Origin: Bacteroidota bacterium
Lineage (GTDB): Bacteria > Bacteroidota > Bacteroidia > Chitinophagales > Chitinophagaceae
Length of the DNA: 64,000 nucleotides
Direction: 5' to 3'
Assembly (NCBI GenBank): GCA_016183765.1
Contig: JACPEA010000009.1
Span: 1-64,000, forward strand
Under the pieces are notes generated by a model that saw only the letters and a list, made by a program, of their open reading frames with translations, was not told the origin of the DNA and made no database searches. The first letter of the stretch is position 1. The number at the start of each line of letters is the position of its first letter. Of the stretch, positions 21,821 through 25,112 are shown one piece after another. The position numbers were made by a program, and so were the translations under genes.

Positions 21821-22840
21821 TTACAGATCATTCAGATAGGCGATGATCGTTTTTAAACTCTTTTTCTGTGGTATAATGGTGTAACTGGTAACGAGGGATA
21901 CGCTGCTGATCTCACGGACACCCAGGTAAAGGTCACTGCCGATCTTCGACAGGGATACCAGCCTGATCTTGCTTTTTACCGGGATCTTCCTGGCAAAAAA
22001 GGAGCGGGAAGCGTAATCGTGCCTGCAGATCACTACGGTCTTCTGGTTATCAAATACTGCAAACACTGCCGTATTCTTATTGGTGAAGTTCGGAGAAAGG
22101 ATCGCGGTCACTTTTACGTTGGGGACGGTGCTGTCGATATACCTGTCTGCCGTAACCCAGCGAAGGTTCTTCGACTCGATCTCGTAGCCATAATAAGACG
22201 GCACCAGTGGGTTATTGCTGATCTTGCTCCAGGTAGGCAGGTAACTGGTGTTAAAGTCCCGCACCCAGGAAAAAACGGTATCGACCCCTCTCAGCGGAAC
22301 TGGTACAGCTTCTCTTCCATAAAAAGCCTGCATATCGGTTTTGGCTGTATCAACGTCGTGAAACTTCAATTTAAAACTGGTATTGCTTGCCAGGGTCAGT
22401 TCCTTGTCCTCTGTAAAAGCACGTATCAGGAAACCGCCGCCGGTTTCCAGCAGGCTGCCGTCGGCAGTAGTGGTGGGCCTGAATACACGGATAAAATCGC
22501 CTTTCCTTCTTAACGGTAACAGCTCGATGCGCACATTACCCTGTGGCGTACCTGATGAGGCCGACCCTACCAGGGTGTTAGGTGCAAATTCAAGTTCCAT
22601 ACTATCGCCAAAATGCAGCTTGCCGCCGTTAACGGCATTCAGGGAATCCACTAACGGCTCTTTGGGGTAGAGAAGATCGAACAGGTCGTATACAGAAGCG
22701 GTATTGGCTACATTCCGCACCCAAACCGTATCATTCAACGGATGAGTGACGTACGTGGTAAAATTGTCCGATAACTCCTTCTTGCAGGAAGCAAGAAACA
22801 GTCCCGACAAACCAACCATGATATATACAATTCTCTTCAT
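21821..22840 (-). CDS. Lipoprotein of unknown function in the ECF sigma operon
   Basis: 339 residues with a lipoprotein signal peptide, lipobox L-A-S-C at residues 16-19. A ZU5-like beta segment may lie around 70-170 (GGKLHFGDSMELEFAPNTL), followed by beta-rich sequence with no recognised motif. It is the third gene of a leftward operon with an ECF sigma factor and a repeat/membrane/barrel protein (54 bp gap), so an envelope role under the same regulator is likely by context. Confidence 0.75.
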   Translation of the reverse strand: MKRIVYIMVGLSGLFLASCKKELSDNFTTYVTHPLNDTVWVRNVANTASVYDLFDLLYPKEPLVDSLNAVNGGKLHFGDSMELEFAPNTLVGSASSGTPQGNVRIELLPLRRKGDFIRVFRPTTTADGSLLETGGGFLIRAFTEDKELTLASNTSFKLKFHDVDTAKTDMQAFYGREAVPVPLRGVDTVFSWVRDFNTSYLPTWSKISNNPLVPSYYGYEIESKNLRWVTADRYIDSTVPNVKVTAILSPNFTNKNTAVFAVFDNQKTVVICRHDYASRSFFARKIPVKSKIRLVSLSKIGSDLYLGVREISSVSLVTSYTIIPQKKSLKTIIAYLNDL

Positions 22841-22894: not shown

Positions 22895-24583
22895 TTATTT
22901 CCTGTTTAAGTTGATCCGTAAACCTACTGCCAGTCCACCTACACTCAGGCGCTGGCGGAAACTGGCCTGCGGGCTGGTCATACTAGACAGATTATAACGG
23001 AAATAGGGTTCAAAGAAAACATGCATATCATCACTCAAACGTTTCACCACACTGAACCCGCCATACAGTCCCAGCCCTATATTACTCTTGTAAACATTGT
23101 TGCCCGACTTGTTCAGCGTTACGGTGGCCAGTGAAGAATCGAGGATCACTCCCTGGTACCAGGAGGAAAGGTTGATCACTACGCCTGCATTGATGCCGAA
23201 TTTCAGGTCCTCATTGCCAAACTGGTAACCTACCGTAACCGGAATATCAAAGCTGCGGTAGCGGTTACGCACGGTATTGTTGCGGAAACCAATGGTCTGT
23301 AATATGCTGGTATCCTGCACGATCACCGTATCGCCAGGGGCGCGGATGATGGTGCGTACCGTAACCACGGTAGTGGTCTTTACTTCATTTTCGGTACGGT
23401 ATACGTATTTTTCGTTGGCCTGCGAGTATTGCACACCGGCTTTCAATAAGATATTATCCGTGAGGGGTTTTACCAGTCGCAGACCGGCAGAATAACTTAC
23501 CTGCATGCTCTCACTGCTGTCTTTCTTCAGCAGGAACAACGGTGAGGCAGATACATTGTTTACCGATTTGAACGGCATATCAGGCGATGCATAGGCTTCC
23601 AGGTACCAATCGGTATTGCGGCGGCTGTCTGCCGGGCAGATAATGATGTTTTTGAACTGGTTGGTATGGTTAAGGGTCGAGAGATGTTTGTCCTGCAGGC
23701 TCTGCCATATATCGTATCCACCCGTCAACGTCGGTATGATGAATGCCGGCAACAGGTTTTGCTGATATGGTTCAATGATTTCCTCATGTGTATCTTCTGT
23801 CAGCTGCTTCTCCGTTACCTGGGCCTTTTTACCAAACGGGTCATACAGGGTTGTGGCAAGAGTCCTTCCGGATGGATCTGCCGGGTGCAACAGCTCGATG
23901 CCTGTTTTCCTGCGGTTGCCCAACAGGTTTCTGCTGTCTACAGGCTGCTCATCTTTTGCATCTACAGCCGGTGTATGGTTTTCTTCAGTAAGAGAAGGGA
24001 CAGCGGGATTCGCACCCTGGTGCCGGTTCTCAGAAACGGGTGTTTGGGATGATTTACCCGCGGCGGGTATTGTATTACTGATATTGTTCCCTGTGTCTTT
24101 TTGCTGTTGCGAAGTAAAATACATATAACCTCCCCAGACGGCTGCAGTTACGATGCCCAGTATCAGAACGGCGGCTGCCGGATAGCGGAACCAGAGGAAA
24201 CCGACACGGTCATCGTCCTCTTCTTCCGGCCGGACCTTCTCCCACAGGCCTGCAGGTACAGGCGCTTCCTGGTCGTGTAATTTACCGGCTACAAACTGGT
24301 CGAACTGTCCGTCACTGATACGGTCCCACAAAACTGCCGGCACAGGCGCTTCGGATCCGGACAGGGTGCCTGCCACAAAGCCATCGAATTGTTTATCGTT
24401 GATCTTCTCCCACAACCCATCCGGAACGGGGGCTTCGGCATCTTTGAGTGTGCTGCCCACGAACTTATCAAATTGACCTTCCACGACCTTATCCCAAAGA
24501 CCGGCTGGCACGGGCACAGCATGGTCTTTGAATTTGTCGTTAAAGAAGTCATCAAATTGGGTATCGTTCATTCTATACAGCAA
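22895..24583 (-). CDS. Sigma-associated membrane protein with four N-terminal 28-residue repeats and a C-terminal barrel-like domain
   Basis: 562 residues. Residues 9-117 contain four tandem repeats of exactly 28 residues, consensus Q-F-D-x-F-V-x-x-x-L-x-D-x-E-A-P-V-P-x-G-L-W, with Trp at 30, 58, 86 and 114. A single membrane helix follows (about 130-153, PAAAVLILGIVTAAVWGGYMYF), then a Pro/Ser/Thr/Glu-rich linker and a C-terminal region (about 330-562) of alternating strands ending like an 8-strand outer-membrane barrel (VGGLAVGLRINLNRK). Single-repeat relatives beside ECF sigma genes are common in this phylum and the layout suggests an anti-sigma-like role. The start overlaps the sigma gene by 11 bp; Met5 is an alternative start. 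Confidence 0.7.
   Translation of the reverse strand: MLYRMNDTQFDDFFNDKFKDHAVPVPAGLWDKVVEGQFDKFVGSTLKDAEAPVPDGLWEKINDKQFDGFVAGTLSGSEAPVPAVLWDRISDGQFDQFVAGKLHDQEAPVPAGLWEKVRPEEEDDDRVGFLWFRYPAAAVLILGIVTAAVWGGYMYFTSQQQKDTGNNISNTIPAAGKSSQTPVSENRHQGANPAVPSLTEENHTPAVDAKDEQPVDSRNLLGNRRKTGIELLHPADPSGRTLATTLYDPFGKKAQVTEKQLTEDTHEEIIEPYQQNLLPAFIIPTLTGGYDIWQSLQDKHLSTLNHTNQFKNIIICPADSRRNTDWYLEAYASPDMPFKSVNNVSASPLFLLKKDSSESMQVSYSAGLRLVKPLTDNILLKAGVQYSQANEKYVYRTENEVKTTTVVTVRTIIRAPGDTVIVQDTSILQTIGFRNNTVRNRYRSFDIPVTVGYQFGNEDLKFGINAGVVINLSSWYQGVILDSSLATVTLNKSGNNVYKSNIGLGLYGGFSVVKRLSDDMHVFFEPYFRYNLSSMTSPQASFRQRLSVGGLAVGLRINLNRK
24224..24559 (-). repeat. Four tandem 84-bp coding repeats
   Basis: The DNA for the four 28-residue repeats has an exact 84-bp period with diverged copies, so the array is old rather than a fresh slippage product. 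Confidence 0.75.
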
Positions 24584-25112
24584 CTTTTTGTAATTGTAAG
24601 ATTTGGTATTGCAGCATCTTCCGCGCCTTTACCAACTGGCTGCGACTGGTGCCGGGTTGAATATTCAGCATTTCCGCGATCTCTTCATGGCTATACCCCT
24701 CTATGGCATTCAGGTTAAATACCAGGCGGTAGCCATCGGGTAACTGGCTGATGAGTCTCATAAGGTCTGCTTCCCCCAGCTGCGAATAGGCCTGGGCATC
24801 AATAGAAGGGGTGTTCTGGCTATTGTCGTCTATGTCTTTGAACTGCAGTTTCTTTTTTTCCAGGTGGCGGATGGCGGTATTTACCACGATACGCCTGATC
24901 CACCCCTCAAAAGCCCCCTCGAACTTGAACTGGCCAATGTACTGGAACACTTTGATAAAAGCATCCTGGATCATATCCTCTGCTTCCATCTGGTCCTTGG
25001 CGTAACGGAGACATACACTCATCATTTTACCCGCATACTTATCAAAAAGCATACGCTGGCATCGGGCATCGTTGCGGATACAACCTTTTATCAGTTCGTA
25101 ATCTTCGGTCAC
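24573..25112 (-). CDS. ECF-type RNA polymerase sigma factor
   Basis: 179 residues with the two domains of group IV sigma factors. Region 2 spans about 10-90 (CLRYAKDQMEAEDMIQDAFIKVF, then F.GWIRRIVVNTAIRHL for -10 recognition), and region 4 about 115-170 (LPDGYRLVFNLNAIEGYSHEEIAEML with the helix-turn-helix that reads the -35 site). It overlaps by 11 bp the downstream repeat/membrane protein, the likely partner. The signal and regulon are unknown. Confidence 0.92.
   Translation of the reverse strand: MTEDYELIKGCIRNDARCQRMLFDKYAGKMMSVCLRYAKDQMEAEDMIQDAFIKVFQYIGQFKFEGAFEGWIRRIVVNTAIRHLEKKKLQFKDIDDNSQNTPSIDAQAYSQLGEADLMRLISQLPDGYRLVFNLNAIEGYSHEEIAEMLNIQPGTSRSQLVKARKMLQYQILQLQKVAV

Follow-up and report, generated by a model that had tools for sequence, protein, structure and literature searches.

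The usual picture of an anti-sigma factor is of one domain serving one sigma factor. The closest described systems to the one reported here are Dma1 and Dma2 of Bacteroides thetaiotaomicron, with Das1 and Das2, for which both the architecture and the control of sigma have been published (PMC13088901). In the part of that paper available to us, the Dma layout comprises an N-terminal anti-sigma domain, a membrane helix, a disordered tether and a C-terminal beta-barrel, next to an ECF sigma gene, and the description includes no tandem units. The open-licence literature searched likewise yielded no description of tandem anti-sigma units. The architecture is thus a known one, while tandem amplification of its anti-sigma unit is apparently undescribed.

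We analysed a stretch of 64,000 nucleotides (the window) from contig JACPEA010000009.1 of a member of the Chitinophagaceae, in which a protein of this type begins with four units. There is, in our judgement, an even chance that it is a Dma-type transenvelope anti-sigma factor whose minimal anti-sigma domain has been multiplied in tandem, providing multivalent docking for sigma.

Gene order and protein architecture

A first-pass annotation of the sequence had coupled an ECF sigma factor to a repeat-bearing protein. Both open reading frames are present, on the minus strand and 1 nt apart, so that the ECF sigma gene adjoins the anti-sigma gene as in Dma systems, in which the sigma factor belongs to group ECF21 and is inhibited in the cell by its anti-sigma factor:

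24573..25112, minus strand: ECF sigma factor P0002, 179 aa (Pfam Sigma70_r2, E 6.7e-15; Sigma70_r4_2, E 1.6e-15)
22895..24571, minus strand: Dma-type anti-sigma factor P0001, 558 aa (likely ATG start, 1 nt beyond the stop codon of the sigma gene)
24122..24178, minus strand: predicted membrane helix, approximately residues 132–150 of P0001 (hydropathy maximum; helix 131–162 in the model)
22910..23605, minus strand: C-terminal beta-barrel-like domain, residues 323–554 of P0001 (weak Pfam OMP_b-brl_2 match; strand-rich model)
21821..22840, minus strand: putative lipoprotein P0006, 339 aa, third gene of the apparent operon (P0006 relatives lie beside the anti-sigma gene)

The ATG at 24571 is a likelier start for P0001 than the TTG at 24583, since the same or a similar stop–start junction recurs in relatives. 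Most of the barrel-type loci retrieved for the genus and the family have a P0006 relative next to the anti-sigma gene, which suggests a three-gene operon of sigma factor, anti-sigma factor and putative lipoprotein. P0006 has no family match in Pfam or NCBIfam; kept beside the anti-sigma gene, it is a possible partner of the barrel. Viral contigs held four relatives of the sigma factor, mostly distant, and viral contigs queried with P0002 returned no sigma relatives. A natural sigma–anti-sigma fusion was also considered and rejected, as a search of the phylum with a sigma profile gave open reading frames of at most 289 aa among the matches listed.

Judged from its sequence, P0001 has the N-terminal order of Dma: the units, as predicted anti-sigma domain, come first and a single membrane helix follows. 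The membrane helix proposed to follow the repeats was indeed recovered, together with a barrel-like domain whose match to an outer-membrane barrel family is weak (OMP_b-brl_2, 24.2 bits, under the curated cut-off of 27). AlphaFold2 was run on the whole of P0001 alone, with an alignment of five sequences (P0001 and four relatives), and gave a model of low confidence (mean pLDDT 41.8) in which residues 131–162 form a long helix, the putative tether region (residues approx. 158–319) lies below 50, and the putative barrel region is strand-rich and partly above 70. The units also lie below 50; the model suggests that they are helix-turn-helix-like, but it is too weak to be relied upon. The link between cytoplasm and envelope put forward for this protein fits the architecture of the Dma family, as far as the available part of its description extends (PMC13088901).

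The repeated unit

The first 116 residues of P0001 consist of four 28-residue units, each starting with QFD:

24476..24559, minus strand: unit 1, QFDDFFNDKFKDHAVPVPAGLWDKVVEG (self-match; no amino-acid change in two orthologues)
24392..24475, minus strand: unit 2, QFDKFVGSTLKDAEAPVPDGLWEKINDK (self-match; dN/dS)
24308..24391, minus strand: unit 3, QFDGFVAGTLSGSEAPVPAVLWDRISDG (self-match; dN/dS)
24224..24307, minus strand: unit 4, QFDQFVAGKLHDQEAPVPAGLWEKVRPE, membrane-proximal (self-match; dN/dS)

At a lag of 28, this N-terminus matches itself at 45 positions; in 20,000 shuffles, no lag from 10 to 59 gave more than 21 matches. The repeats had been described as exact: the register is so, but the letters are not identical, as any two units share 12–17 of 28 residues (44–52 of 84 nt), with QFD, a VP pair and a Trp common to all. 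Similarly, the 28-residue spacing reported for QFD stands, but the positions given (residues 9, 37, 65 and 93) were counted from the TTG at 24583 and become 5, 33, 61 and 89 from the ATG at 24571. Synonymous differences between the units are high or saturated, which indicates that they are old duplications.

The unit has no convincing match in Pfam, NCBIfam or the PDB, and the best hit of P0001 among solved structures was unconvincing (E 0.081). Its nature is nevertheless suggested by its relatives. Indeed, loci retrieved across the class by sigma similarity mostly encode one unit directly before the membrane helix, in long and short proteins alike, and all 81 single units aligned contain the Trp. 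Given this single copy in most sigma-linked proteins and this constancy of the Trp, the unit is very probably a minimal anti-sigma domain, amplified in the window protein.

Several related ECF sigma factors are encoded in the same genome and the four units differ in sequence, as would be expected if different units captured different sigma factors and the protein acted as a hub. We regard this as very improbable: the three closest sigma paralogues each lie beside a one-unit, one-helix protein of their own, and the number of units differs among close relatives.

Mutual information was computed on 165 natural sigma–unit pairs (mean of the top 20, APC-corrected) and compared with 60 clade-restricted shuffles, after removal of the gapped end columns that had dominated an initial run. 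Real pairings exceeded all 60 shuffles by a small effect, with the same excess for first and last units and the top pairs spread over sigma regions 2 and 4. This excess may be residual phylogeny, and lends at best weak support to a contact between sigma factor and unit.

Variation in unit number

Relatives had been expected to carry usually one unit, and this is the case in most of the 207 unique sigma/anti-sigma pairs scored with a unit profile, the others having 2, 3, 4, 5, 6 or 8, although these counts vary with the profile and the thresholds chosen, and some one-unit proteins escape detection. The survey of homologous operons proposed in the first-pass annotation thereby found a repeat number that varies (1–6 and 8) rather than a constant one.

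In the window's genus, one group keeps the 28-residue register with 4 to 6 units and another has 2–3 units at a spacing of approximately 35 residues; the two may be a single group (p-AU 0.34). On the barrel tree of 60 rows, the state changed between single and multiple at least seven times, a count that does not separate gain from loss. A further protein of the genus, L233 (genome G193), lies outside this tree and has eight units, of which the adjacent units 6 and 7 are identical at 77 of 84 nt (seven differences) and, judged from this pair, are a recent tandem duplication.

Several other arrays were encountered. Two longer proteins (L142 and L137), from the same taxonomic order, carry several diverged units ahead of the membrane helix. 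Short sigma-linked proteins (L094, L118, L120 and L123; open reading frames of approx. 300 aa) carry 2–4 related units at other spacings, apparently through separate multiplication. In L007 and L020, some internal units lack the otherwise invariant Trp, which suggests decay of individual units.

The recent duplication in L233 and the repeated changes on the tree are what would be seen if slippage or recombination simply let copy number drift, with little consequence for function. We consider this unlikely for the window protein, whose units are old, under constraint and kept in three related genomes.

Constraint on individual units

When the window is compared with its two closest relatives, dN is well below dS in all four units; unit 1 has no replacement, and units 2 and 3 have the most. 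First and last units are also the closest to single units: against a single-unit profile, median scores were 28.6 bits for singles, 29.6 for first, 25.2 for last and 16.4 for internal units. As internal units fit this profile less well, not all units may bind sigma.

Such a pattern bears on the main rival to multivalent capture, namely that only a terminal unit, either the first or the membrane-proximal one, inhibits sigma, the internal units being spacers that lengthen the cytoplasmic arm. The resemblance of first and last units to single ones, their stronger constraint among close relatives of the window and the loss of Trp from internal units of L007 and L020 all point in this direction; against it, QFD, the VP pair and the Trp are all intact in the window's units 2 and 3, whose dN/dS is low. 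We hold this explanation to be possible, though doubtful.

Multivalent capture is our preferred mechanism, at about even odds. Each helix-turn-helix-like unit of approximately 28 residues, with its invariant Trp, could offer the cognate ECF sigma factor a place to dock, and the array would make both the capture and the rebinding of sigma at the membrane more likely or, alternatively, allow one receptor to hold more than one sigma molecule. Sigma would then be released when the putative outer-membrane barrel senses a change. More tentatively, the array could be a multivalent sigma store in which a fast-evolving copy number sets capacity or release threshold, forming an evolvable dial on transenvelope signalling.

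Comparison with described systems

Sigma factors beside the series of one to eight units are approximately 68–89% identical to the window sigma factor in the rows compared. This natural series within one genus offers a direct test of unit number against sigma capacity, affinity and signal threshold, and copy number among relatives could tune the release of the switch.

Short ECF-linked anti-sigma proteins of Bacteroidia, such as those described above, share this type of unit, placed ahead of a membrane helix, and some carry two to four copies of it. However, they are too short for a tether and barrel of the P0001 type, and their units are spaced by approximately 30–36 residues. As far as the Dma description available to us goes, P0001 shows the same order of unit(s), helix, tether and barrel beside an ECF sigma gene, tether and barrel being predicted, and it apparently belongs, as Dma2 does, to a three-gene operon (PMC13088901). 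It differs in that Dma has one anti-sigma domain, whereas P0001 has four tandem units (PMC13088901).
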